Assembly: GCF_024298965.1 (NCBI RefSeq)
Contig: NZ_CP085193.1
Span: 4,464,001-4,528,000, forward strand
Length of the DNA: 64,000 nucleotides
From: Streptomyces rapamycinicus NRRL 5491
Lineage (GTDB): Bacteria; Actinomycetota; Actinomycetes; Streptomycetales; Streptomycetaceae
Direction: 5' to 3'
Both the position numbers and the translations under genes were made by a program. The notes beneath the pieces were generated by a model. The model did no database searches and was not told the DNA's origin. It saw only the letters and a program-made list of their open reading frames with translations. Below are positions 3,392 through 16,381 of the stretch, one piece after another (positions within the stretch are counted from its first letter, which is position 1; each line of letters begins with the position of its first letter).

Positions 3392-3599
3392 CGCCGGTGT
3401 CCGCCCGCGAAAGGGCGCTGTAGGGCTTTCGCCCGCTCCGCCCGCGAAGAGGCGCCGTAGCGCCCGTAGGGGCCCCGCTGGAGCCCTGCCGCGGTCGCCG
3501 GGCGACCCGGCCTCCCCTCACCCGTACGCCCCCGCTGTGCGCGCGTGCGGCGGCCACGGACCTCACGATGGCGGTACCCCCACCCACGGGAGAGCCGCC

Positions 3600-5108
3600 G
3601 TGTCCCGACCTCTGCGCCTCGGTGCGCTGTCCGCCGCCCTGCTGGTGACCGCCCTGGCCGCCGGATGCGGTGGCGACGGCGGACGGCCGGACACCTCGGC
3701 CCACCAGAAACCGGACTGGTCCGGCTGCCCCGCCCCCTCCTCGAGCCAGGACGCGGCCGCCACCAAGGCCCCGGGCGGGGAGTGGGAGTGCGCGACGCTC
3801 CATGTGCCGCTGGACTACCGCAAGCCGCGCGGCAAGACCATCGGCATCGCCATGATCCGCGCCAAGGCCACCGACCGGCGCCACCGGATCGGCTCGCTGA
3901 TCTTCAACTTCGGCGGCCCCGGCGGTTCGGGCGTGGCCACCCTCCCGGCGCTCGCGGGCAGCTACAAGCAACTGCGCACCCGCTACGACCTGGTCAGCTT
4001 CGATCCGCGCGGGGTCGGCCGCAGCAGCGGGGTACGTTGTCTCCCGGACCGGCAGCTCGACGCCTACTACGCCGCCGACTCCACCCCGAACGACAACGCC
4101 GAGGTGAAGAGCCTGGTCCGCCGGGTGAAGACCTACGCCGCCGGATGCGAGAAGAACTCCGGCACGGTCCTGCCGTACGTCGGCACCGCCAACGCCGCCC
4201 GTGACATGGATCTCATGCGGCGCGTCCTCGGCGACAAGAAGATGCACTACTTCGGCGTCTCCTACGGCACCGAACTCGGCGGCGTCTACGCCCATCTGTA
4301 CCCGAAGCAGGTGGGGCGCGCCCTCTTCGACGGGGTCGTGGACCCCATGCAGACGCCCGAACAGGGCGCGCTCGGCCAGGCCAAGGGGTTCCAGCGCGCC
4401 CTCGACGACTATCTGAAGGCGTGCACCAGGACCAGCGCCAACAGCTGCCCCACCCAGAACCGGATCCGCACGCTGCTGAAGCGGCTCGACGGCCGTCCGG
4501 TGCGCGGCTACGGCGGCCGGAAGCTGACCGAGTCCCTCGCCGACGGCGGTATCGCGCAGTCCCTGTACTCGCGGGAGTACTGGCAGTACCTCACCCAGGG
4601 GATCGCCGCCGCCCAGCAGGGCGACGGCAGGATCCTGCTGGCCCTGGGGGACGCCATGAACGGACGCGGCCCGGACGGCCGCTACAGCACCCTCCAGTCC
4701 GCCCTTACCGCCATCACCTGCGCCGACTTCAAGCAGCGCTATACGGTCCCGGACATCGAGCGGAAGCTGCCCACCTTCCGTAAGGTCTCCCCGGTCTTCG
4801 GCGACATGATGGCGTGGGGCCTGACCCAGTGCACCGACTGGCCGGTCCACGGCGCCTGGACCACGCCCGACGTGAGCGCCAAGGGGGCCGCGCCGATCCT
4901 GGTCGTCGGCAACACCGGCGACCCGGCGACCCCGTACGAGGGTGCCGCGCGGATGGCGAAGGAGCTGGGCCCCGGGGTCGGCGTCCAGCTCACCTACAAG
5001 GGCGAGGGCCATGGGGCGTACGACAGCGGCAACGCCTGTGTCCGAAGGACGGTCAACGACTATCTGCTCAAGGGCACGGTGCCTCCGAAGGGCAAGGTCT
5101 GCACCTAG
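3600..5108 (+). CDS. SlpD/SlpE-like tripeptidyl aminopeptidase, alpha/beta hydrolase lipoprotein (copy 1)
   Basis: A 502-aa secreted hydrolase. The GTG at 3600 follows a GGGAG-type ribosome site and gives MSRPLRLGALSAALL...AAGCGG, a signal peptide with a lipoprotein-like cysteine. The family signature GGPGGSG (near residue 104) is an oxyanion-loop motif. The triad is visible: Ser221 in GVSYG, Asp441 in NTGDPATPY and His471 in GEGHGAY. The C-terminal part matches the TAP_C domain of Streptomyces tripeptidyl aminopeptidases and the SlpD/SlpE mycelium-associated proteases. It should release short peptides at the outer membrane face. The adjacent gene is a paralogue, pointing to tandem duplication. 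Confidence 0.9.
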   Translation: MSRPLRLGALSAALLVTALAAGCGGDGGRPDTSAHQKPDWSGCPAPSSSQDAAATKAPGGEWECATLHVPLDYRKPRGKTIGIAMIRAKATDRRHRIGSLIFNFGGPGGSGVATLPALAGSYKQLRTRYDLVSFDPRGVGRSSGVRCLPDRQLDAYYAADSTPNDNAEVKSLVRRVKTYAAGCEKNSGTVLPYVGTANAARDMDLMRRVLGDKKMHYFGVSYGTELGGVYAHLYPKQVGRALFDGVVDPMQTPEQGALGQAKGFQRALDDYLKACTRTSANSCPTQNRIRTLLKRLDGRPVRGYGGRKLTESLADGGIAQSLYSREYWQYLTQGIAAAQQGDGRILLALGDAMNGRGPDGRYSTLQSALTAITCADFKQRYTVPDIERKLPTFRKVSPVFGDMMAWGLTQCTDWPVHGAWTTPDVSAKGAAPILVVGNTGDPATPYEGAARMAKELGPGVGVQLTYKGEGHGAYDSGNACVRRTVNDYLLKGTVPPKGKVCT

Positions 5109-5212
5109 GGGGTCCGCGGCCGGGCCCGCCGTACGGACGCCGCGCGAACCGTGACGGCTTTGAGAAGAGTTGCGGACGATTCCGCCCCCGCCTCCTCATA
5201 GGATCTCCGGAT

Positions 5213-6817
5213 ATGCCGAGTTCCCCACGCACCATACGGACCAGGGCGCTGGTCTCCATGACCGCCATGGTCACCCTCCTCACCGTCGCGGGCTGCGATG
5301 ACGACGGGGGAAACGAGCAGGGCAAGGCGTCGTCCGAGCCCTCGGCGTCGGCCCCGGCCGCGCCTTCGGATTCCGGGCTGCCGGGCTCGCTCACCGGTCA
5401 GAAGCTCAACTGGTCGTCCTGCCAGGCCCCGACCGCGATGCAGGGCACCGGTGAGAAGCCGGGAAGCGAGTGGGAATGCGCCACTCTGAAGGTGCCGCTG
5501 GACTACGCGAAGCCCAGAGGCGAAACGATCGATCTGGCCATGATCCGCGCCAAGGCCACCGGATCGGACAAGCGCATCGGCTCCCTGGTGTTCAACTTCG
5601 GCGGACCCGGCGGCTCCGGTGTCTCCTCGCTCCCCGGTTTCGCCGCCGCCTACGACACTCTGCGCTCACGCTATGACCTGGTGAGCTTCGATCCGCGCGG
5701 GGTCGGCGAGAGCGCCGGGGTGCGGTGCCAGAGCGACCAGGAGATCGACGCCTCGGACGCCGTGGACAGCACGCCGGACGACGACGCCGAGATCAAGACC
5801 GCGATGGCGGACGCCAAGGCGTTCATCGAGGGCTGCGAGAAGCGTTCCGGCAAGGTGCTCGGCCATGTGGACACCGTGAGCGCCGCCCGTGACATGGACC
5901 TCATGCGGCAGGTGCTGGGCGACGACAAGCTGTCGTACTTCGGCATCTCCTACGGCACCGAACTCGGCGGCGTCTACGCTCATCTGTACCCGAAGCGGGT
6001 GGGACGCGCGGTTCTGGACGCCGTGGTCGACCCCACCGAGGACCCCGAGCAGGGCTCTCTCGGCCAGGCGAAGGGGTTCCAGCTCGCGCTCGACAACTAC
6101 CTCGAGGACTGCGCCAAGAAGGGCACGGCCTGCCCGACCGGCGGCGACCCGGCGGCGGGCGCCGACCGGATCGTGGCCTTCCTGAAGAAGCTCGACAAGA
6201 AGCCGCTGTCCACCGAGAGCGGCCGCAAGCTCACCCAGGACGGGGCGCTGAGCGGTATCGCCGCCGCGCTCTACGACAAGGAGAGCTGGAAGTACCTGAC
6301 CCTCGGGCTGCAGGAGGCGATGCAGCTCGAGGAGGGCAACATGCTGCTCGCGATGGCCGATTCGATGTCCGGCCGCGACGAGAACGGCCACTACAGCAAC
6401 ATCAACACCGCCAACGCGGCCATCAACTGCGTGGACGACAGGCAGCGTTACACGGTGACCGATGTGAAGGCGCAGCTGCCGCGCTTCCGCAAGGCGTCAC
6501 CGGTCTTCGGCGAGTACCTGGCCTGGGGCATGCTCGGCTGTACCGGCTGGCCCGTGGACGGCACCACGGACACCCCTGATGTCAGCGCCCAGGGCTCGGC
6601 GCCGGTCCTCGTGGTCGGCAACACCGGCGACCCGGCCACCCCGTACGAGGGGGCCCGGAAGATGGTCCAGGAGCTGGGCAAGGGCGTGGGCGTCGAGGTC
6701 ACCTACAAGGGGCAGGGCCATGGCGCGTACAACAGCGGCAACGCCTGTATGACGAAGACCGTGAACGCCTATCTGCTGGACGGGAAGGTGCCCGCGGGCG
6801 GCAAGACGTGCCGCTGA
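5213..6817 (+). CDS. SlpD/SlpE-like tripeptidyl aminopeptidase, alpha/beta hydrolase lipoprotein (copy 2)
   Basis: A 534-aa paralogue of the upstream gene, 104 bp downstream on the same strand. The ATG at 5213 gives a signal peptide ending TVAGC, a good lipobox. The catalytic set is complete: GGPGGSG near residue 130, Ser246 in GISYG, Asp473 in NTGDPATPY and His503 in GQGHGAY. It differs from copy 1 by a longer low-complexity linker after the cysteine (about residues 24-60) and an insert near residue 310. The sequence TAGGAT lies 8 nt upstream of the ATG, so it may have its own near-leaderless promoter rather than depend on copy 1. The reading frame stays open upstream to 4814, but that stretch overlaps copy 1 out of frame and is not coding. 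Confidence 0.9.
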   Translation: MPSSPRTIRTRALVSMTAMVTLLTVAGCDDDGGNEQGKASSEPSASAPAAPSDSGLPGSLTGQKLNWSSCQAPTAMQGTGEKPGSEWECATLKVPLDYAKPRGETIDLAMIRAKATGSDKRIGSLVFNFGGPGGSGVSSLPGFAAAYDTLRSRYDLVSFDPRGVGESAGVRCQSDQEIDASDAVDSTPDDDAEIKTAMADAKAFIEGCEKRSGKVLGHVDTVSAARDMDLMRQVLGDDKLSYFGISYGTELGGVYAHLYPKRVGRAVLDAVVDPTEDPEQGSLGQAKGFQLALDNYLEDCAKKGTACPTGGDPAAGADRIVAFLKKLDKKPLSTESGRKLTQDGALSGIAAALYDKESWKYLTLGLQEAMQLEEGNMLLAMADSMSGRDENGHYSNINTANAAINCVDDRQRYTVTDVKAQLPRFRKASPVFGEYLAWGMLGCTGWPVDGTTDTPDVSAQGSAPVLVVGNTGDPATPYEGARKMVQELGKGVGVEVTYKGQGHGAYNSGNACMTKTVNAYLLDGKVPAGGKTCR

Positions 6818-6919: not shown

Positions 6920-8098
6920 TCAGTAGACCGGCTTGTCGGGCTCGATCTGGTTGACCCAGCCGATCACGCCGCCGCCCACGTGGACGGCGTCGGAGAAGCC
7001 CGCGGACTTCAGGACGGCCAGGACTTCCGCGGACCGGACACCCGTCTTGCAGTGCAAGACGATCTTCTTGTCCTGCGGAAGGTCCTGGAGGGCGCCGCCC
7101 ATCAGGAACCCGTCCTTCGGGATCAGCCGGGCGCCGGGGATCGAGACGATCTCGTACTCGTTGGGCTCCCGGACGTCGATGATGTCGATGTTCTCGCCGT
7201 CGTCGATCCACTCCTTGAGCTGCTTGGGAGTGATCGTCGAACCGGCCGCCGCCTCCTGGGCCTCGTCCGACACCACACCGCAGAACGCCTCGTAGTCGAT
7301 CAGCTCGGTGACGGTCGGGTTCGGGCCGCAGACCGCGCAGTCCGGGTCCTTGCGGACCTTGACCTGGCGGTAGGTCATCTCCAGGGCGTCGTAGATCATC
7401 AGACGGCCGACCAGCGGGTCCCCGGTGCCGGTGAGCACCTTGATGGCCTCGGTGACCTGGATGGAGCCGATGGAGGCGCACAGCACGCCCAGCACGCCGC
7501 CCTCGGCGCAGGACGGGACCATGCCGGGCGGCGGGGGCTCCGGGTACAGGCAGCGGTAGCAGGGGCCGTGCTCGGACCAGAAGACCGACGCCTGGCCGTC
7601 GAAGCGGTAGATCGAACCCCACACGTACGGCTTGTTCAGCAGCACGCACGCGTCGTTGACCAGATAGCGGGTGGCGAAGTTGTCGGTGCCGTCCACGATC
7701 AGGTCGTACTCGGAGAAGATCTCCATGACGTTGTCCGCCTCGAGGCGGCCCTCGTGCAGCACGACGTTCACGTACGGGTTGATGCCGAGGACCGTGTCAC
7801 GGGCGGACTCCGCCTTGGACCGGCCGATGTCTGCCTGGCTGTGGATGACCTGGCGCTGCAGGTTGGACTCGTCGACCTCGTCGAACTCCACGATGCCGAG
7901 GGTGCCCACGCCGGCCGCGGCGAGGTACATCAGGGCCGGGGAGCCGAGGCCGCCCGCGCCCACACAGAGCACCTTGGCGTTCTTCAGCCGCTTCTGCCCG
8001 TCCATCCCGACATCGGGGATGATCAGATGGCGCGAGTACCTGCGGACCTCGTCGACGGTGAGCTCGGGAGCCGGCTCGACCAGGGGTGGCAGCGACAC
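6920..8098 (-). CDS. moeZ: MoeZ: adenylyltransferase/sulfurtransferase with ThiF and rhodanese domains
   Basis: A 392-aa protein, the usual length for actinobacterial MoeZ. The N-terminal E1-like domain has GAGGLGSPAL (ATP binding) and two CxxC pairs (CYRC and CAVC) that would hold zinc. The C-terminal rhodanese domain has the active loop HCKTGVRS, with Cys350 as persulfide carrier. By family knowledge it adenylates the C-terminus of sulfur-carrier proteins and passes sulfur to them, serving molybdopterin, cysteine or thiolated metabolite synthesis. The GTG at 8098 has GGAG five bases upstream and gives the family N-terminus MSLPPLVEPAPELT; the longer in-frame reading to 8317 is not needed. 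It converges on the upstream peptidase gene. Confidence 0.95.
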   Translation of the reverse strand: MSLPPLVEPAPELTVDEVRRYSRHLIIPDVGMDGQKRLKNAKVLCVGAGGLGSPALMYLAAAGVGTLGIVEFDEVDESNLQRQVIHSQADIGRSKAESARDTVLGINPYVNVVLHEGRLEADNVMEIFSEYDLIVDGTDNFATRYLVNDACVLLNKPYVWGSIYRFDGQASVFWSEHGPCYRCLYPEPPPPGMVPSCAEGGVLGVLCASIGSIQVTEAIKVLTGTGDPLVGRLMIYDALEMTYRQVKVRKDPDCAVCGPNPTVTELIDYEAFCGVVSDEAQEAAAGSTITPKQLKEWIDDGENIDIIDVREPNEYEIVSIPGARLIPKDGFLMGGALQDLPQDKKIVLHCKTGVRSAEVLAVLKSAGFSDAVHVGGGVIGWVNQIEPDKPVY

Positions 8099-8183
8099 GG
8101 GGACTCCGTAAGGGGAGGGAGCAGACGGTTCACCCCCGCGTGAGCGGGGTGGTTTTCTTCTCGTAACACTGCCACGCCCCATC

Positions 8184-8951
8184 TCATTCCATGACACGTG
8201 GTCCGAGTCGCGAGACGATTTCGTCCCAGTAGCCGGGCAGGGCCGTCCACGGGGAATCGGTGCAGGTCCGCCCCTCGGGGTGGGCCGTACGGTCGGTGAA
8301 GTAGATCGTGCCCGCACCCTGCCAGCGGGCGATCCTCAGCGCTTCCTCGAGATGCCGGCGGGGGACGCCGTGCACCTGGTGGCAGAACCGTTCGGGCGGA
8401 TACTCCGCGGTCCACTCGGCCACCTGGGACCAACGGTAGTCGGGCCACGAGCCCCGGAAGGTCACCAGCTGGTCGGCGAGCTCCATATAGCCCTCATGCG
8501 GATGGATGCCCTGGCCGAGCACCAGATAGGCCCCGCCCAGCAGCGCGCGCAGCGTGGCCGCCGTACGGCGGACCTCCGGCAGTCCGGGGCGGTCCACCGG
8601 GCAGCGCTCCAGACAGAAGCCGTCGACCTGGTACCAGTCCAGGAAGTGGTTCGCGTCACTGATCACCTCGCCGAAGGGGCGGGTGCCGCACCGCAGGTCG
8701 AGATGGCCCAGCACCCGTACGCCCGTGGCGCGCAGCCGGGCCGCCGCCGTGAGGCAGTGCGGATCCCGGCGCGCGCCGGGGCCGCGGGCGACATTGAGGA
8801 CCGCCCAGTGCAGGGGCGCGCCGGGGCGGGTGAGCTCGGCCCACTCGGTGGGCGCCACCAGGGGGTGGGCGTAGCCGGGCACTCCGAAGCCCAGCCTGGC
8901 GGCGGTGACCGGGACCTCGTGCCCGGGGTCCGCGGGGATCAGATGCGACAT
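8184..8951 (-). CDS. Spherulation-specific family 4 (Spherulin4/GH135-like) protein
   Basis: A 255-aa protein of the Spherulin4 family (PF12138), whose fungal member Sph3 (GH135) cleaves galactosaminogalactan. The visible pattern is FGVPGYAHPL, then GVRVLGHLDLRCGTR, DWYQVDGFCLERCP, GQGIHPHEGYMELAD and YFTDR, which follows the barrel strands of the family. No signal peptide or membrane segment is seen, so it is probably cytoplasmic, unlike Sph3. The usual acidic residue of the TFE-type motif appears as Arg (VTFRGSW), so catalysis is uncertain. It is the last gene of a four-gene operon; its ATG overlaps the upstream epimerase by 13 bp and has GGAGG five bases upstream. Its job in the polysaccharide-like operon is inferred from context only. 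Confidence 0.8.
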   Translation of the reverse strand: MSHLIPADPGHEVPVTAARLGFGVPGYAHPLVAPTEWAELTRPGAPLHWAVLNVARGPGARRDPHCLTAAARLRATGVRVLGHLDLRCGTRPFGEVISDANHFLDWYQVDGFCLERCPVDRPGLPEVRRTAATLRALLGGAYLVLGQGIHPHEGYMELADQLVTFRGSWPDYRWSQVAEWTAEYPPERFCHQVHGVPRRHLEEALRIARWQGAGTIYFTDRTAHPEGRTCTDSPWTALPGYWDEIVSRLGPRVME

Positions 8952-10003
8952 GCCGCCTCCATCCAGATGTCGGCGAGCGACTCCTCCAGCGGGATCCTGG
9001 AGCGCCAGCCGAGCCGGTCGCGGGCGGTGCGCACATCGGCCTGCTGCCAGCTGCCGCAGCCGTCCGGGTAGGGGTAGGTGGCGCCGCCGACACCCGCCGG
9101 GCCGCCGCCGTGCTCGCCCGCCACCTGGGGGTGGGAGGGCGCGTGACCGTGGGCGGTGGCGTGGCCGTGGGCCGCGCCATGGGGGTGGGCGGGCGCCGGG
9201 ACGTGGGCCGCGGCGGCCGGGACGTGATGCGGTCCCCCGCGCCCCGGCGGGCTGTCGATCTCGTGCAGGGCGCCGCCGAAGCCCGCCACCCTGGCGAGCA
9301 CGGAGGCCGCCTCGCGCATCCTCACGGCGCGCCCGCTGCCGATGTTGACCACGCCCTGCGCGGCCGACAGCGAGGCCGCGTGGACCGCCCGTGCCACGTC
9401 CCGTACGTCCACGAAGTCGCGCTGCACGCCCAGGCCGCTCAGTTTGAGCTCGCTCTCCCCGGACTGCATCGCGCGCCGCATCGCCTCCGCGAGCCGCCCC
9501 AGCGGCGACCCGGCCGGGGTGCCGGGGCCCACGGGCGAGAAGACCCGCAGCACCACCGCGTCCAGCCCGGAGCCCAGCACCAGCTCGGTCGCGGCGAGCT
9601 TGCTCACGCCGTACGGGCCGCCGGGGCGCGGCACGGCGTCCTCGGCGGTCGACGATCCGGGCTGCGAGGGCCCGTACTCGGAGGAGCAGCCGATCTGGAC
9701 GAGGCGGGCGCCGCAGCCGCTGCGGCGCAGCGACTCGCCGACGGTGGCCACGGCGACGGTGTTGTGCCGGGTGAGCTCGCGCGCCCCGCCACGGGTCGCC
9801 CCGGCGCAGTTGATCACCACGCCGGGGTGGACCGCGTTGAGGAAGCGGGTGAGTGCGCCCGGGCTGCCGTTGGACAGGTCGAACCGCACATCGGCGTCGT
9901 CGCCGCGGCCGAGCGCGGTGAGCTGGACGGCGGGGTCGGCGAGCAGGTGTTCGGCCACATAGCGGCCGAGGAATCCGCCGGACCCGAGCAACAGGACTCT
10001 CAT
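8939..10003 (-). CDS. NAD-dependent epimerase/dehydratase (extended SDR) with His-rich insert
   Basis: A 354-aa protein. The N-terminus MRVLLLGSGGFLG is the Rossmann dinucleotide loop; CSSEYG and the YGVSK pair (Tyr and Lys of the SDR active site) follow, and SPVGPG sits in the substrate part. It therefore resembles UDP-sugar 4-epimerases or dehydratases. Between about residues 255 and 310 a low-complexity insert carries many His residues in HPHGAAHGHATAHGHA, absent from ordinary family members. The ATG at 10003 has GGGGAGG eight bases upstream. Transcribed after the membrane protein and overlapping the spherulin-like gene, it probably supplies a nucleotide sugar to the glycosyltransferase of the same operon; the exact sugar is unknown. 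Confidence 0.85.
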   Translation of the reverse strand: MRVLLLGSGGFLGRYVAEHLLADPAVQLTALGRGDDADVRFDLSNGSPGALTRFLNAVHPGVVINCAGATRGGARELTRHNTVAVATVGESLRRSGCGARLVQIGCSSEYGPSQPGSSTAEDAVPRPGGPYGVSKLAATELVLGSGLDAVVLRVFSPVGPGTPAGSPLGRLAEAMRRAMQSGESELKLSGLGVQRDFVDVRDVARAVHAASLSAAQGVVNIGSGRAVRMREAASVLARVAGFGGALHEIDSPPGRGGPHHVPAAAAHVPAPAHPHGAAHGHATAHGHAPSHPQVAGEHGGGPAGVGGATYPYPDGCGSWQQADVRTARDRLGWRSRIPLEESLADIWMEAACRI

Positions 10004-10100
10004 CGGTCGCGCCTCCCCGTACCGGCGCGCTGATCGGTCATGTCGCAGCTCATGTGGTTGCTCCTCGGACTCATTGAGGGGGGGAAGGACGGGGGGGGGC

Positions 10101-10180
10101 GGGTTCGGTGGGCGCCTTACGGGCGCGGTGGGCCCCTTACGGGCGCGGTGGACGCCTTATGGGCGCGGTGGACGCCTTAT
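10101..10180. repeat. Four tandem 20-bp repeats
   Basis: Four contiguous 20-bp units start at 10101, 10121, 10141 and 10161. The last two are identical and the first two differ by a few bases. The array runs into the 3' end of the membrane protein gene and supplies its TAA stop (10177-10179 on the minus strand). The rest of the 10004-10176 gap is G-rich and shows nothing else. Confidence 0.9.
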
Positions 10181-11634
10181 GGGGCGCGGTCCGGGGCGGT
10201 GCCGGTCGTACGGGTGTCACAGGCGCCCCGGGCGGTACGCGCGCCGGGGTCGCCGTGGGCGGAAGCCCGGCACAGGACGCCGAACGCGCGGATCAGCAGG
10301 GCGAGCGCGGCGGCGCCGCAGGCGGCCGCGGGGACGGCGGCCGCGTCCTGGACGGCGGTCAGCCGTGCCACGGGCTCCCCGAACGGCGCGGCACCCGGCA
10401 GCCGGGCGGCCGCCGCCGTCGCCAGGGCCGCGGCCTGGACCGCACAGGCCACGGCGACGCCGCTGAGCGCGGCCCTCCGGAAGCCGTGGACGGCGAGCAG
10501 CCGGGCGAGGAACAGCAGCCCGCAGAGCGCCACGACGGCGGCCTCGGCCGTCGAGAGGGGCGCGGCGGCGGGAGGCGATCCGGGCACCGTGAGCCGGGCC
10601 GCGAGCACCAGGGCCGCCAGAGCGCAGAGGAAGGCCGTCACCACGCCCGCGAACAGCGGGCGCACCCCGGCCGCGAACTCCCCCAGACCACGGCTGACCG
10701 CCAGCCTGCGGCGCGCCCTGACGGCGAACCAGCGGGCGCACCACGCGGCGGGCGCGGCGGCCAGGGCGAAGAGGACGGCGGCCTCGGCCGCCGGCGCCGC
10801 GTCGTAAGGGCGGCGGCCGTCGAGGAGCCCGGTGAGCAGCCAGTCCCCGGCGGCGGCGTACCCGAGCAGCCACCCGGTGCCGAAGGCGTGCGCCATACGG
10901 CCCCCGCGCCCGCTCCCACGGACGCGCAGGGGACCACGGCGCAGACACAGCCACAGGGCGATGAGCGTCAGGACGGCGCCGCCCACACCCAGGGCGAGGC
11001 CGACGGTGGTGTCCTTACGGATGGCATCACGGATGGCATCGACGCGGAAGGCGGCGGAGGCGGTCGCCGCGCACAGGGCGCCCGGCAGCAGCCACCGCGC
11101 CGCGAGCGTGATCCGCGCGGCCGGCGCGCGCCCCGGCGCGGGGGCGTCCGGGGGCGCGGGCTCCTCGGCGCGCGGCACCCGGGCGTACAGCTCCTCGGCG
11201 AGCGAGAAGACATCGCGGTGCCGGAAGCGCGCGGCGGTGCGATCCGTCACACCGTGGGCCTCCAGCCCGGCGGCGATCTCCAGCGGATCGACGGCGCGGG
11301 CGCACAGGTCGTGGTGGCGGTGCATCAGCGCCCGCACCGGATCGGCGGGCCCGCGCCGCCCCTTCCCCTGCCCCTTCCCGGCGCCGGTGCGCGCGGACGC
11401 CTCGTCCGGCCGCCGGGAGACCGGCACCCGGGAGACCGGCACCCGGGCGGGCCCGGACAGCGCGGCGAGGCCGCGATCGGAGGTGGGGGCGCGATCGGAA
11501 GCGAGGCCGCGATCGGGGGCAGGGCCGCGGTCCGGGGCAGGGCCGCGATCGGGGGCAAGACCGCGATCAGAGGCGAAGCCTCGGTCCGAGGAGGCCGGAT
11601 CGAACGGGCCGTTCCGCCGGGAGGGCGTGGTCAT
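10177..11634 (-). CDS. Polytopic membrane protein of the glycosyltransferase operon
   Basis: A 485-aa protein I cannot place in a named family. Residues 1-130 are disordered and hydrophilic, with six-residue repeats of the type SDRGLA/PDRGPA (about residues 15-55), then a soluble stretch with PVRALMHRHHDLCARAVDP. From about residue 185 to the C-terminus there are roughly nine or ten hydrophobic segments. Its ATG overlaps the glycosyltransferase stop in ATGA (11631-11634), so the two are translationally coupled. By position it could be the export or assembly partner of the transferase, as PelG is in pel operons, but I see no PelG-specific motif. The TAA stop comes from the 20-bp repeat array. 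Confidence 0.75.
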   Translation of the reverse strand: MTTPSRRNGPFDPASSDRGFASDRGLAPDRGPAPDRGPAPDRGLASDRAPTSDRGLAALSGPARVPVSRVPVSRRPDEASARTGAGKGQGKGRRGPADPVRALMHRHHDLCARAVDPLEIAAGLEAHGVTDRTAARFRHRDVFSLAEELYARVPRAEEPAPPDAPAPGRAPAARITLAARWLLPGALCAATASAAFRVDAIRDAIRKDTTVGLALGVGGAVLTLIALWLCLRRGPLRVRGSGRGGRMAHAFGTGWLLGYAAAGDWLLTGLLDGRRPYDAAPAAEAAVLFALAAAPAAWCARWFAVRARRRLAVSRGLGEFAAGVRPLFAGVVTAFLCALAALVLAARLTVPGSPPAAAPLSTAEAAVVALCGLLFLARLLAVHGFRRAALSGVAVACAVQAAALATAAAARLPGAAPFGEPVARLTAVQDAAAVPAAACGAAALALLIRAFGVLCRASAHGDPGARTARGACDTRTTGTAPDRAP

Positions 11635-13523
11635 GCGCCCTCCTCGGACGGGCGCGGGCCCACGCCCAGCGGCTCGCGTGGCGGTGCACCGGCCCAGGTG
11701 GGGGTGTGCTCCGGGGCGGGGCGGGAGGCGGCCGGGCCGGGCGGCCGGTGCCCGGAGCCGTCACCGTCGCGGCCCGCGGTCCAGCGCCCCGGCACATGGG
11801 CCTCGGCGGGGCGGGCGAACGGCAGCGGCCCGCCGCTCTCGCCGACCTCCTCGCGCGGCACCGGGCAGTGCGACATCAGCTCCAGATAGATCCCCCGGAA
11901 CGCCGCGACGTTCTGCTCGACGGTGAACAGCTCCAGCGCACGGGCACGCGCGGCGGCGCCCAGGCGCGCACAGCGCTCGGCGTCGCTCAGCAGCGCCAGG
12001 CACGCGTCCGCGAGCGCCCGGGGATTGCGCGGGGGGACCACAAGGCCGGTCCCGCCGATGACCTCGCACACCGCGCCCACGTCCGTGGACACCGTGGCCC
12101 GTCCGCAGAACATCGCCTCGACCAGCCCGACCGGAAAGCCCTCGACCACGCTGGACAGCACCACGACGCCGCCCGCCCCATAGGCATCGGCCAGGGTCGG
12201 CACCTCGGGGTCGCCGAGCCGCTCGAAGGAGACGGGGTTGTCACCGGCGGAGTGGGCGTCCGCCGCCTCGTCGGGGAAGAGGTGGTCGGCCAGCGCCCGG
12301 CAGTGGGCCGGATAGCCGTCCGGCCCCGGGTCCTCGCCGCGCCGGGTCTCGATGATCCTCAGCCGGGCGTCCGGCTGCCACCGGCGCACCTCCGCGAAGG
12401 CGTGCAGCAGGGCGATGACGTCCTTGGGGGGCTCGATCCGGCCCACCCACACCAGCGTCCGGTCGTCGCCTTCTGAGGGGGCCGCGTCCTGCTCGCCGAC
12501 CTCCGCGAACCGGGCGGCGTCCATGCCCGGGTAGACGGTGCGCAGCCGCTCCCGGTCGGCGCCGCACCGTTCCTGCCAGCGGCGGGTGTGGGTATTTCCG
12601 GGGGTGATCAGATCCGCCCGCGCGTACGCCTCGGCGGCCAGCCGGCCGTGGAACGCGGTCAGCAGGGACCGTACGGGCCCGGAGAGCGGCCGTCCGCTCT
12701 CGGCACCGCCCCCAACGTCCCCACCCGCCGCACCCGCCAGATAGCACTCGCGCAGCCGTACGCCGTACTCGGTGAGCAGCAGCGGGGTGCCGAAGCGGCG
12801 CTTGGCCAGCAACCCGGGGAGCACGGCCGCGCCGCCGGTCGCGGCGTGGCACAGATCCACCCCGGCCAGCCCCGGATCGCCACCGGGCCCGTCGCCGTAC
12901 CAGTCGAGCGAGAGCGGGCGCAGTGCGCGCTCCAGGGCCTCGGTGACGGTCAGCAGATCGGCGACCCGCGCCCGCTGCGCGCCGTGCGGCGCCCCGAGGG
13001 TTCGGCAGGCCCGCTCCAGCGTCCTTACGGCGTCCTCGGAGCGGAGCGCGGCGGACAGTCCGCCGTACTCCCCCGCCAGGTCCGCGAGGCCGTGGAGACC
13101 ATTGGCGAAACGGTCCGCCTGGTCCGTGGAGCACCCGGGCGCACCGGAGCCATGGGGCACACACGAACCATGGGACGCATCAGGACCATGGGGCACACCG
13201 GAGCCGTAGGGCGCGCCGGAGCCGTAAGGCGCGCTGATCGCCGCGGCCAGTTCCCCGAAGTGCTCGGCGAACCGCCGCCGCTGCCGGCGGCCGCCCCACC
13301 CGCCCCGCCGGGGCTCGGGCTCTCCCCACAGCGGCGCCGTGCACACCCGGCCGACATGCCGCGGCAGCTCACCCCAGCCCGCACCCTCCTGGCCGGGGTC
13401 GCGGCTGAGCGCGTACACCTCGAACTCATGCTGGGCGAGCCCGCGCACCAGCCGGTCGCACCACACCCGCGCATCACCGATCGCATACGGATAGCCACCC
13501 TCCGTAAGCAGTCCCACGCGCAT
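11631..13523 (-). CDS. GT4 glycosyltransferase with N-terminal DUF3492 (PelF-type)
   Basis: A 630-aa protein starting MRVGLLTEGGYPYAIGDAR, the characteristic opening of DUF3492 glycosyltransferases such as PelF. The C-terminal GT-B half shows LVWVGRIEPPKDV (near residue 375), VSFERLGDP, and the E-x7-E donor site in VEGFPVGLVEAM, followed by VSTDVGAVCEVI. PelF polymerises cationic N-acetylgalactosamine-type polymer from a UDP-sugar in the cytosol; a similar role is inferred here. A low-complexity stretch of YGSGAPYGSGVPHG type (about residues 100-125) is an insertion. ATG 13523 is preferred over the in-frame start at 13571, because the family N-terminus begins there. First gene of the operon with the membrane protein, epimerase and spherulin-like gene. 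Confidence 0.88.
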   Translation of the reverse strand: MRVGLLTEGGYPYAIGDARVWCDRLVRGLAQHEFEVYALSRDPGQEGAGWGELPRHVGRVCTAPLWGEPEPRRGGWGGRRQRRRFAEHFGELAAAISAPYGSGAPYGSGVPHGPDASHGSCVPHGSGAPGCSTDQADRFANGLHGLADLAGEYGGLSAALRSEDAVRTLERACRTLGAPHGAQRARVADLLTVTEALERALRPLSLDWYGDGPGGDPGLAGVDLCHAATGGAAVLPGLLAKRRFGTPLLLTEYGVRLRECYLAGAAGGDVGGGAESGRPLSGPVRSLLTAFHGRLAAEAYARADLITPGNTHTRRWQERCGADRERLRTVYPGMDAARFAEVGEQDAAPSEGDDRTLVWVGRIEPPKDVIALLHAFAEVRRWQPDARLRIIETRRGEDPGPDGYPAHCRALADHLFPDEAADAHSAGDNPVSFERLGDPEVPTLADAYGAGGVVVLSSVVEGFPVGLVEAMFCGRATVSTDVGAVCEVIGGTGLVVPPRNPRALADACLALLSDAERCARLGAAARARALELFTVEQNVAAFRGIYLELMSHCPVPREEVGESGGPLPFARPAEAHVPGRWTAGRDGDGSGHRPPGPAASRPAPEHTPTWAGAPPREPLGVGPRPSEEGA

Positions 13524-13725
13524 GAGCGCACCCCCGATCTCCCAAACGGGCCGTTCGTCTGCCGTCGTCACCGGCGGCGGCCGCCGTCAGGCAGCGGGAG
13601 CACGTTATGCGCGCAGGGCCATGGCGCGATGGACGGTTGTCCGTCGCACCACCGGAAGGGGTGAACGCACGTGACCTATCGGGAATTCAGGCGTTGCGAG
13701 GCGCTATATGGGCCGTACGGGCCCG

Positions 13726-15354
13726 TCAGCCCTTGGGGAACGGCCAGGCGTTGGGGCGGCAGGTGGCGCCGTCCGTCGACAGGAACTTGGTCTGCTGCAT
13801 CATCACCGGTGCGAGCGCGCCCTGCTTGGAGCAGATCTCGTGGTTGTGGCCGAGACGGTGGCCCACCTCGTGGTTGATGAGCATCTGGCGGTAGGAGTGC
13901 ACCTTGTCGTCGCCGAAGGTCTTGGCGCCCTGCGCCCACCGATAGGCGTTGATCATGACGCGCTCGGTGGACGCCGAGTCGCAGGAGACGTTGTCCTCGG
14001 TGGTGTCCAGGCCGGACTTGGCGCACCACGCCGCCGTGGTCCCGGGGCTCGCGAGGGTGATCACGAAGTCCGCATGCCCGGACGAGACCCGCTCGAAGGT
14101 GCGAACGCCGCCATGCCCCCAACTGCGGTCGTCGTTCAGCGTCTTGTGCACGGCCTCGGCGAACAGCTCGCCGTCGAGCGGCAGTCCCTTCTCCACATCG
14201 ACGCGGTAGCGCAGCACCTGGCCGCGGCCGGGCCCCTTGTCACGCCCGCCGACGGTCCGGAAGGCGCCGGAGCCGCGCAGCTTGGCGTCAAGCGGAAAGA
14301 GGGCCGCCATCTTCTCGTCATAGGTGACGGGGGCGGGCGAGTTCGCCGAGCGGGCCGCACCGCGGCCGTCGTCGGCGTGGGAGCCGCGGCCGCCGCGGGA
14401 GGCGGTGTCGTCGCCGCTCTCCGAACCGCCCCGGGCCTGCGTCTTACCGCCGCCGCCCTGCGGTCCGCTCGCGACCTGTCCGGCCACCACGACGGCCAGC
14501 ACGGTGGTCACGGCCGCGGCGGCGACACCGGTGAACGTGCGCCCCTTACCGCCCTTGGTGACGCCGCGCGCCCCCTTGCCCGGGAGCTCCTGCCCGTCGT
14601 CGTCCGGCCCGTTCCCGCCGTCGCCGCCCGAGCCGCCGCCGAACCCCCCGGAGGGGGTGGCCGCCCGCTGCGTACGGCGCTGCGGGGGCACGCCGCCCGG
14701 CGCACCGGCGGCGAAGACGTCGTCGCCGTCGCAGTCCAGGGCGTCGGGGGTGTCGAACGCCTCGATGTACTCCTTGCGCGGGCCGGGCATCAGACCGGCC
14801 GCGCCCCCCGTGCCGCCTGTGGTCGGGCGCTGCGGCGGGTTCATGGTGCGCATGCCGTAAGGGGGCCGCTGACCGCCGGGACCGCCGCGGAACCCGGGAC
14901 CACCGGGTCCACCGGGTCCACCGGGACCGCCACGACCACCAGGGCCACCGGGTCCACCGGGTCCGCCAGGACCACCGCGACCACCAGGGCCGCCGGGCCC
15001 ACCAGGGCCTCTGACCCCGCCCGGACCGCCGCCGCGGCCGCCGACCGCGCCCCAGCCGCCGCCCGCCTCGCGCTGCTCGGGATGTCCGCCCCTGGTGCGC
15101 GCCGCGGGCCCGTCGGCTCCGTAAGGCAGTCTCGGCACACCCTGCGGCGGGGTGACCCCGGGATCCGGGGCGCCGGGCCCCGGGGCGGCCCGGCGGCGCC
15201 CGGTCCCCGGTCTGCCGCCGTCGGCCGCGGAGGCCTCACCGGACGCGCTGTACTCGACGAACTCGGGGCCCGAGCCCTGCCCCTGGCCGGAGCCCGCCGC
15301 GGCGGACCGGCGTTCCCGGCCCTCCTGGCTGCCACGTGCGCTGTGTTTACCCAC
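13726..15354 (-). CDS. DUF3152 protein: membrane-anchored metzincin-like domain with collagen-like linker
   Basis: A 542-aa protein. The cytosolic part (1-290) is disordered and contains about 50 residues of GGPGGPGGRGGPGG type, collagen-like. A membrane segment follows near residues 295-315 (VAAAAVTTVLAVVVAGQVA). The extracellular C-terminal DUF3152 domain carries HEVGHRLGHNH: His495, Glu496, His499 and His505 match the metzincin zinc motif HExxHxxGxxH, and APVMMQQ just after could be the Met-turn. I infer a zinc protease fold; the substrate is unknown. The GTG at 15354 has GGGAG upstream and overlaps the preceding hydrolase gene by 8 bp. The M. tuberculosis equivalent (Rv3207c) also lies next to moeZ and the TetR gene. 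Confidence 0.85.
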   Translation of the reverse strand: MGKHSARGSQEGRERRSAAAGSGQGQGSGPEFVEYSASGEASAADGGRPGTGRRRAAPGPGAPDPGVTPPQGVPRLPYGADGPAARTRGGHPEQREAGGGWGAVGGRGGGPGGVRGPGGPGGPGGRGGPGGPGGPGGPGGRGGPGGPGGPGGPGFRGGPGGQRPPYGMRTMNPPQRPTTGGTGGAAGLMPGPRKEYIEAFDTPDALDCDGDDVFAAGAPGGVPPQRRTQRAATPSGGFGGGSGGDGGNGPDDDGQELPGKGARGVTKGGKGRTFTGVAAAAVTTVLAVVVAGQVASGPQGGGGKTQARGGSESGDDTASRGGRGSHADDGRGAARSANSPAPVTYDEKMAALFPLDAKLRGSGAFRTVGGRDKGPGRGQVLRYRVDVEKGLPLDGELFAEAVHKTLNDDRSWGHGGVRTFERVSSGHADFVITLASPGTTAAWCAKSGLDTTEDNVSCDSASTERVMINAYRWAQGAKTFGDDKVHSYRQMLINHEVGHRLGHNHEICSKQGALAPVMMQQTKFLSTDGATCRPNAWPFPKG

Positions 15355-16381
15355 GCGCCGCACCGCTCCCGTCCGCGCCGGACACCGGTACGGCCCCCCG
15401 CGCCTCCCGGCTCTCCCGGTCATCTCGTTGATCAACGTCGTCGAGCAGCTCGCGCATCCCGCGCGCCACCGCCTCGGGATACTCCATCATCGCGACATGC
15501 CCGGCGTCCAACAGCGTCAACAGACGCGAGTCGCGGAAGGTGGCGTTGGCCCGATCCGCCATCCTTACGGACACCAACTGGTCCCGGCCGCCGTAGACGA
15601 GCAGTGTCGGGGCGAGCACCCGCTCGGCCTGACGCCACAGGGAGTGCTGACCGCCCAGGGTGTACGAATCGACGACACCGCGTGCGGAGCGGGTGAGCGC
15701 GTCCCAGAAGTACGGGAGGGTGAGCCGGCGTTCGAACTCCTCCACCGCGTGGCCGAAAGCCTCCCGGGTGACCAGGGACGGATCGCCGAAGGTGAGCAGC
15801 ATCACCTCGCGGGTGCGCCGCTCCGCGTCCCAGTCCCTGGTCAAGCGGGTGAACAGCCGGGTCACCCCGGGCACCGCGAGCAGGCCGGTCGGCACCGCGG
15901 TGCGCTGCGGGCGCAGTTCGGGCAGCGCGGGCGAGACGAGCGTGAGGGTGCGCACCAGATCGGGCCGCACCGCCGCGACGCGGGTGGCGATCGCGCCGCC
16001 CATCGAATTGCCGACCAGATGGACCGGTCCGCGGGCCTGCGCGTCGAGGTAGCGGATCATGGCGCGGGCATGGCCGGTTATCGAGTAGTTGCCGTCGTCC
16101 GGCGGCGGGGAGTCGCCGAAGCCGGGGAGGTCGAGCGCCTCGCCCTCCACCCGGTCGGCGAGCAGCTCCATGAGCGCGGACCAGTTCTGCGAGGAGCCGC
16201 CGAGGCCGTGGACGAAGAGCGCGGGCGGCAGCCCGGAGGCGGCCGGCGGACGGCAGCGCACGGTCATCGTGAGCCCCGGGAGGGCGGCGGTCCGCAGCTT
16301 CTCCCCCGCTCCGACCCGCACGGGCCTCGCGGGCGGCACCGCCGCGACGATGCGGGCTTCCGGCGGCTCTGTCGAAGACAT
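15347..16381 (-). CDS. Alpha/beta hydrolase
   Basis: A 344-aa cytosolic hydrolase. FVHGLGGSSQNW carries the oxyanion HG motif; Ser126 in GNSMGG is the nucleophile, Asp in YGGRDQLV and His in DAGHVAMMEYP complete the triad. The charged tail after about residue 310 is non-conserved. The substrate cannot be told from sequence. The TAACAT hexamer lies 6 nt upstream of the ATG, suggesting a leaderless transcript. Its 3' end overlaps the DUF3152 gene by 8 bp, so the two form an operon. Confidence 0.9.
   Translation of the reverse strand: MSSTEPPEARIVAAVPPARPVRVGAGEKLRTAALPGLTMTVRCRPPAASGLPPALFVHGLGGSSQNWSALMELLADRVEGEALDLPGFGDSPPPDDGNYSITGHARAMIRYLDAQARGPVHLVGNSMGGAIATRVAAVRPDLVRTLTLVSPALPELRPQRTAVPTGLLAVPGVTRLFTRLTRDWDAERRTREVMLLTFGDPSLVTREAFGHAVEEFERRLTLPYFWDALTRSARGVVDSYTLGGQHSLWRQAERVLAPTLLVYGGRDQLVSVRMADRANATFRDSRLLTLLDAGHVAMMEYPEAVARGMRELLDDVDQRDDRESREARGAVPVSGADGSGAARG

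Follow-up and report, generated by a model that had tools for sequence, protein, structure and literature searches.

A four-gene locus beside moeZ in Streptomyces as a probable repurposed descendant of an Agd3-type exopolysaccharide cluster

What is the role of a small, apparently polysaccharide-related gene set that Streptomyces carries beside moeZ? In Streptomyces rapamycinicus NRRL 5491 the set lies in a 64,000-nucleotide stretch of contig NZ_CP085193.1 (positions 4,464,001 to 4,528,000 of the forward strand), hereafter the window, whose own numbering is used below; the four genes and the two flanking genes are on its minus strand. Four overlapping or closely set genes between a DUF3152 gene and moeZ, confirmed by open reading frames (ORFs) and, for the three soluble products, by Pfam matches, encode a GT4 glycosyltransferase (GT) with a DUF3492 N-terminal domain, a polytopic membrane protein (MP), an extended short-chain dehydrogenase/reductase (SDR) and a Spherulin4/GH135-family protein (Sph4). 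A sequence-only reading of the window saw in them a new Pel-like pathway. Their origin in a polysaccharide operon is borne out by a PelF-related GT, an exporter-type relative of MP and a galactosaminidase-family protein; the new pathway is not, as the set appears to be a changed remnant. The locus probably descends, by repurposing, from an Agd3-type (galactosaminogalactan-like) cluster that stood complete beside moeZ in an ancestor within the Streptomycetaceae: changed active-site residues and a shortened predicted exporter suggest that it no longer makes, exports and trims the ancestral polymer and is kept for another job.

The intact form of this cluster comprises an Agd3-like gene, a DUF3492 GT, a 12-helix MP, a LegB-like dehydratase, a nucleotidyltransferase, an SDR, a GH135 protein and often a GH114 protein. 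A paralog-type second SDR (E 1e-43 to 1e-54) is present in 16 of 61 genomes of the genus, and nine of 11 fetched surroundings of such genes, all except L091 and L097, hold the Agd3-like, DUF3492 GT, MP, LegB-like, nucleotidyltransferase, SDR and Spherulin4 genes. L093 is the clearest intact copy; a GH114 ORF occurs in 20 of 31 paralog-type stretches and in L133. The window set is collinear with the intact cluster (GT-MP-...-SDR-Sph4), minus Agd3, the LegB-like gene, the nucleotidyltransferase and GH114. Agd3 finds no match in 80 named Streptomyces loci (the best 80 of 422, ranked by Sph4 likeness), in 20 genus loci fetched around a GT or SDR match, a less selected set that has three loci in common with the 80, or in the window genome, where the search lacked a positive control. 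GH114 is likewise missing from these 20 and 80 moeZ-linked loci; the window genome has one GH114 gene elsewhere and no second DUF3492 locus. Judged by sequence, the window set shares ancestry with the Agd3-type cluster, on the combined evidence of collinearity, trees, a homologous N-terminal domain of MP and a bridging MP in L133. Both L093 (8526-10294) and L133 (5539-7628) carry a LegB-like 4,6-dehydratase, below the cut-off, and a nucleotidyltransferase in place of a clear UDP-glucose epimerase, so the polymer of the intact cluster may contain a 6-deoxy amino sugar.

One genome, G268 (genus g104), has a complete cluster, GH114 included, that adjoins moeZ, with a single biotin-synthase-like ORF (by eye) in between. 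Its motifs are intact: HGGVS, TEHG, the Lys and EX7E in GT, the Asp and Glu in GH135, and the Ser in SDR. In midpoint-rooted trees, the G268 GH135 protein is sister to the rest of the moeZ lineage (98/93). Change in the family is stepwise: L144 has an altered GT loop, having lost its Gly, and Tyr in place of the GT His, but retains the GH135 Glu and the SDR Ser, and eight fetched loci of g92, g93, g100 and g103 (L127-L131, L142, L143, L145) have no detectable GH135 and no EX7E and keep the SDR Ser. Upstream of the G268 cluster, ORFs for membrane proteins (L250, 81-3544) resemble, by eye, an envelope polysaccharide region.

The window GT (11631..13571; 646 aa from a GTG; PF11997 E 5.7e-26) begins upstream of the bound at 13523 first assigned to it, which is an internal ATG. 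Its DUF3492 domain and PelF kinship hold; at 97.4 bits against the NCBIfam PelF model NF038011 it falls marginally short of the curated cut-off of 100, which the GT of the intact relative passes with 172.8 bits. The second Gly of the paralogs' HGGV loop is replaced at D33 (codon 13473..13475): among 68 rows of the named-loci alignment, Asp or Glu stands there in 61, with three gaps, and Gly in 30/30 paralogs and L133. The His of the paralogs' TEHG motif is replaced at Y269 (12765..12767), with Tyr in 66 rows and His in two; again all 30 paralogs and L133 have His. Retained are the EX7E motif (12117..12143; E477 in 66/68 and E485 in 67/68 rows) and a conserved Arg (68/68) and Lys (65/68). The less selected genus loci have Asp or Glu at 33 in 19, Tyr269 in 16 (His in two) and the Lys in 15. 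When columns at least 90% conserved in the paralogs plus L133 are followed into the window lineage, 122 of 219 are kept in GT and 53 are lost.

In SDR (8939..10003; 354 aa; PF01370 E 1.3e-35) the same test finds 75 of 94 columns kept and seven lost, Ser106 and Asn156 among the latter. The catalytic Ser is Cys at C106 (9686..9688) in 80/80 rows, and Ser in 26/26 paralogs and L133; the catalytic Tyr and Lys are retained in 80/80 rows. Across 20 family loci, position 106 is Ser in 12 and Cys in eight. An SDR, as proposed from sequence, is present and has its Tyr and Lys; the name epimerase is not established, because the catalytic Ser position holds Cys and the best solved relative, PDB 2pk3 (E 5.7e-22), is a GDP-6-deoxy-D-lyxo-4-hexulose reductase. 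SDR also has a His-rich insert (9050..9268; aa 246-318, 12 His); this region has 3-12 His, with a median of 3, in 41 of 80 relatives measured.

Sph4 (8184..8951; 255 aa; PF12138 E 9.6e-18) belongs to its proposed family, with 65 bits against a cut-off of 30.2. The acid/base residue of Sph3 is reported to be Glu222 (PMC12054363); the corresponding window residue is R166 (8454..8456). An alignment of the window protein with the best 120 of 1283 relatives has Ser, Ala, Thr, Arg, Cys or Asn at this position in 121/121 rows and never Glu, which is also found in 0/81 named-loci rows; it is present in 28/28 paralogs and L133. What the earlier reading took for a different hydrolase is without this catalytic Glu. 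The Asp position is Glu in the window (E115; 8607..8609), and the conserved-column test finds 39 of 59 columns kept and seven lost. No hydrophobic signal or anchor is found in the window protein or in the L093 homologue (11090-11872), the latter tested from its likely start, which leaves out the first 40 residues of a longer ORF. Fungal Sph3 is described as membrane-bound, and for an enzyme that trims a polymer, a cytoplasmic location of GH135 would be unusual. Several database entries of the Sph4 family are named "phage tail protein" despite the Pfam Spherulin4 match, in what looks like a spreading misannotation.

MP (10177..11634; 485 aa), probably a shortened protein of MOP/MATE type, has no NCBIfam match and none in Pfam at E values of up to 1. 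In an AlphaFold2 model (mean pLDDT 69.1, pTM 0.60), the membrane region (10267..11124; aa 171-456) is predicted to have about eight long helices, compared with 12 in the MOP/MATE fold of the intact-cluster MP; the window exporter is therefore predicted to be shortened. A conserved N-terminal soluble domain (11170..11346; aa 97-155) is homologous to that of the intact-cluster MP (hhalign 97.7%, E 2e-12), and the L133 protein bridges the two types. PelG is a MOP-type protein, and the proposal of a PelG-like exporter is probably right as to the exporter type, given the fold of the intact relative, and fails as to PelG itself: PF16933 has no match among the 75 window-type and 44 intact-type MPs scanned (set A2 also contains 26 of the 75) or in the window genome, and is above the cut-off in 2/246 phylum genomes, with a Thermotoga control matched. 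Comparison of MP with a thin, two-sequence PelG profile by hhalign gives a probability of 0.1-0.2.

These changes are carried by a set that is widely kept. GT, MP, SDR, Sph4 and moeZ are all held by 66 of the 80 named loci; 12 of the 14 incomplete ones lie at a contig end, and two, L177 and L201, do not and have no detected MP. The genus loci have GT in 20/20, MP in 19/20, SDR in 20/20 and Sph4 in 18/20, and conservation across both sets rules out a chance association of the four genes; relatives do carry the transferase with its partners. With paralogs included, GT is matched in 59, MP in 58 and SDR in 59 of the 61 genus genomes. The close SDR group is present in 57 of them (E 3.5e-132 or better) and in 112 of 121 family genomes (E 1e-85 or better). 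It adjoins moeZ in 20/20 fetched family loci, 17 of which have a detected GT, 16 an MP and seven an Sph4.

Pairwise dN/dS is below 1 for all four genes. By the NG86 method, with the window compared to eight relatives, dN/dS is 0.07-0.22 for SDR, 0.18-0.32 for GT, 0.08-0.31 for GH135 and 0.39-0.57 for MP; the control values are 0.06-0.23 for moeZ and 0.18-0.42 for DUF3152. By gene order and annotation (SCO5174 a transferase, SCO5178 moeB), the locus corresponds to SCO5174-SCO5177 of S. coelicolor. SCO5174, SCO5175 and SCO5177 are listed among the 53 conserved genes of unknown function that change most between the first and second mycelium, with induction of log2 3.0-3.8 in the second mycelium at 48-72 h (PMC3610822), and SCO5174 transposon mutants are reported to make less actinorhodin (PMC6585502).

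In the proposed history, a complete Agd3-type cluster beside moeZ, in an ancestor within the Streptomycetaceae, would have lost its Agd3, LegB-like, nucleotidyltransferase and GH114 genes and kept GT, MP, SDR and GH135. The remaining products may form a membrane-tethered complex. In it GT would retain sugar-nucleotide binding, although its acceptor or its reaction may have changed, SDR would go on acting on a nucleotide sugar, and the GH135 relative would hold on to a glycan or a partner without cutting; the complex could serve cell-envelope homeostasis in differentiating hyphae. A more specific and more tentative proposal is that an altered transferase, sugar reductase and glycosidase form, with the truncated exporter, a pseudoenzyme complex that senses the supply of envelope sugars during development or serves as a scaffold for it. 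If repurposing is correct, it would account for an operon of unknown function that is widely conserved in Streptomyces and reportedly induced in development, and it would provide an intact-to-altered evolutionary series open to tests at each residue. That at least one genome carries, next to moeZ, a complete actinobacterial counterpart of the fungal galactosaminogalactan cluster also bears on the bacterial origin proposed for the fungal cluster (PMC7229062).

Several observations weigh against repurposing. The 80- and 120-sequence sets are the most window-like of the 422 and 1283 found. The set is not uniformly maintained: E477 is kept in just 15/20 of the less selected genus loci (E485 in 19/20), Sph4 is undetected in 2/20 of these and detected in 7/20 family loci, and the close-group SDR is missing from G001, G010, G017 and G050 (G001 and G050 are incomplete genomes). 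The GH135 Asp position is still Asp in 98/121 rows (Glu in 16). MP is the least constrained gene, with dN/dS above both controls, and dS is only 0.03-0.2 in many pairs; profile comparison of window-type and intact-type MPs recovers the N-terminal domain alone. The intact moeZ-linked cluster comes from one genome among the 20 fetched family loci, with no DUF3152 match within 7 kb upstream; the SDR tree places it at the base of the moeZ lineage, in a fork that is unresolved (group 96/96), and the GT tree, where a short branch puts it between the lineages, is compatible only. The S. coelicolor correspondence is one of gene order and annotation, SCO5176 is absent from the published table (PMC3610822), about a quarter of the mutants are expected false positives and no SCO5174 complementation was seen in that report (PMC6585502). 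As a side observation, MP pieces persist in both G010 and G017, and GT pieces in G010 too.

The donor-side GT residues and the SDR Tyr and Lys are retained, so both proteins may be active enzymes, and the main rival to repurposing builds on this: a retooled, fully enzymatic pathway in which Asp/Glu33, Tyr269 and Cys106 confer new specificity and a different surface glycan is made and exported, with the GH135 relative serving as a binding protein. Near-fixation of Cys106 (80/80) and Tyr269 (66/68), which is not random, the Arg, Lys and EX7E of GT kept in the named-loci set and the low dN/dS of SDR speak for such a pathway. It is nonetheless rather unlikely: MP has about eight predicted helices rather than 12, the sugar-supply genes are missing from the locus, and in the eight loci of g92, g93, g100 and g103 SDR stays where EX7E and detectable GH135 are gone. 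These same loci would suit slow decay of a functionless, dying remnant, as would the stepwise changes (in L144 the Gly of the GT loop and the GT His are gone and the Glu of GH135 and the Ser of SDR remain), the degenerate GTs of some genus loci (L079-L083) and an MP dN/dS of up to 0.57; decay is improbable, given that SDR has a dN/dS of 0.07-0.22 and persists in 57/61 genus genomes, that the new residue at SDR 106 is fixed and not scattered, and that induction and a mutant phenotype are on record (PMC3610822; PMC6585502). The reading first proposed, an active pel-like operon whose product is a galactosamine polymer, has the DUF3492 transferase, the intact relative's 172.8 bits against the PelF cut-off of 100 and a related exporter of MOP-type fold in its favor, and is very improbable with no PelG by Pfam, a window GT below the PelF cut-off, no deacetylase gene in the locus, the GH135 Glu absent in 121/121 rows and fewer predicted helices.

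Downstream of the set lies moeZ (6920..8098; 392 aa; NF005902 750.7 bits over residues 74-465 of ORF 6920-8317), whose product matches Pfam ThiF and Rhodanese; upstream is the DUF3152 gene (13726..15435; PF11350 E 8.2e-60). GT and MP overlap by 4 bp and SDR and Sph4 by 13 bp, with gaps of 173 bp between MP and SDR and 85 bp between Sph4 and the moeZ start (8098). The adjacency of moeZ and DUF3152, given for M. tuberculosis in the earlier reading, is real in other families: hits to the two are less than 200 bp apart in 9/89 class genomes, which belong to five families, and four more have them at 1.9-2.9 kb, so the four genes, across the 5.6 kb that separate the pair in the window genome, sit between genes that are neighbors in other lineages. 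The genome measures 12.47 Mb, and the best named matches of the window are Streptomyces, among them S. endocoffeicus, S. iranensis, S. antioxidans and S. violaceusniger. At 3537-6817, upstream of the block, two adjacent and similar ORFs look by eye like alpha/beta-hydrolases.

How does the locus compare with known systems? Identity with a pel operon was considered and rejected: PelG is missing, the PelF score is below the cut-off and the parts list, called Pel-like at first, is that of an Agd3/galactosaminogalactan cluster. A search for the c-di-GMP receptor PelD (PF16963) gave no match, in its controls as well as here. The Gram-positive pelDEADAFG operon (PMC7112168) resembles the window locus in its PelF-related GT4 and, through the relatives of MP, in an exporter of MOP-type fold, but PelG finds no match in the window locus, which also lacks an Agd3-type deacetylase. 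GH135 Sph3 (PDB 5c5g/5d6t) shares the Spherulin4 Pfam family; the match to 5d6t has an E value of 2.4e-13 for the intact relative, whereas the window protein reaches E 0.1 only and has no acid/base Glu. The fungal galactosaminogalactan cluster, uge3-sph3-ega3-agd3-gtb3 (PMC4817252), is matched by intact actinobacterial relatives that carry Agd3-like, Sph3-like (GH135) and often Ega3-like (GH114) genes and a GT, whereas the window has just GT, MP, SDR and a Glu-less GH135 relative; fungal Gtb3 is a single integral membrane GT, compared here by description rather than sequence, and GT and MP are separate in the window (PMC4817252). The closest counterparts are the Agd3-type exopolysaccharide operons already reported in Actinobacteria, some with spherulin-4 genes (Bamford et al. 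2020, PMC7229062): they share a cytoplasmic GT, a multi-spanning MP and, in some cases, spherulin-4 with the window locus, which differs from them in the missing Agd3, LegB-like, nucleotidyltransferase and GH114 genes, the changed active sites and the fewer predicted membrane helices.

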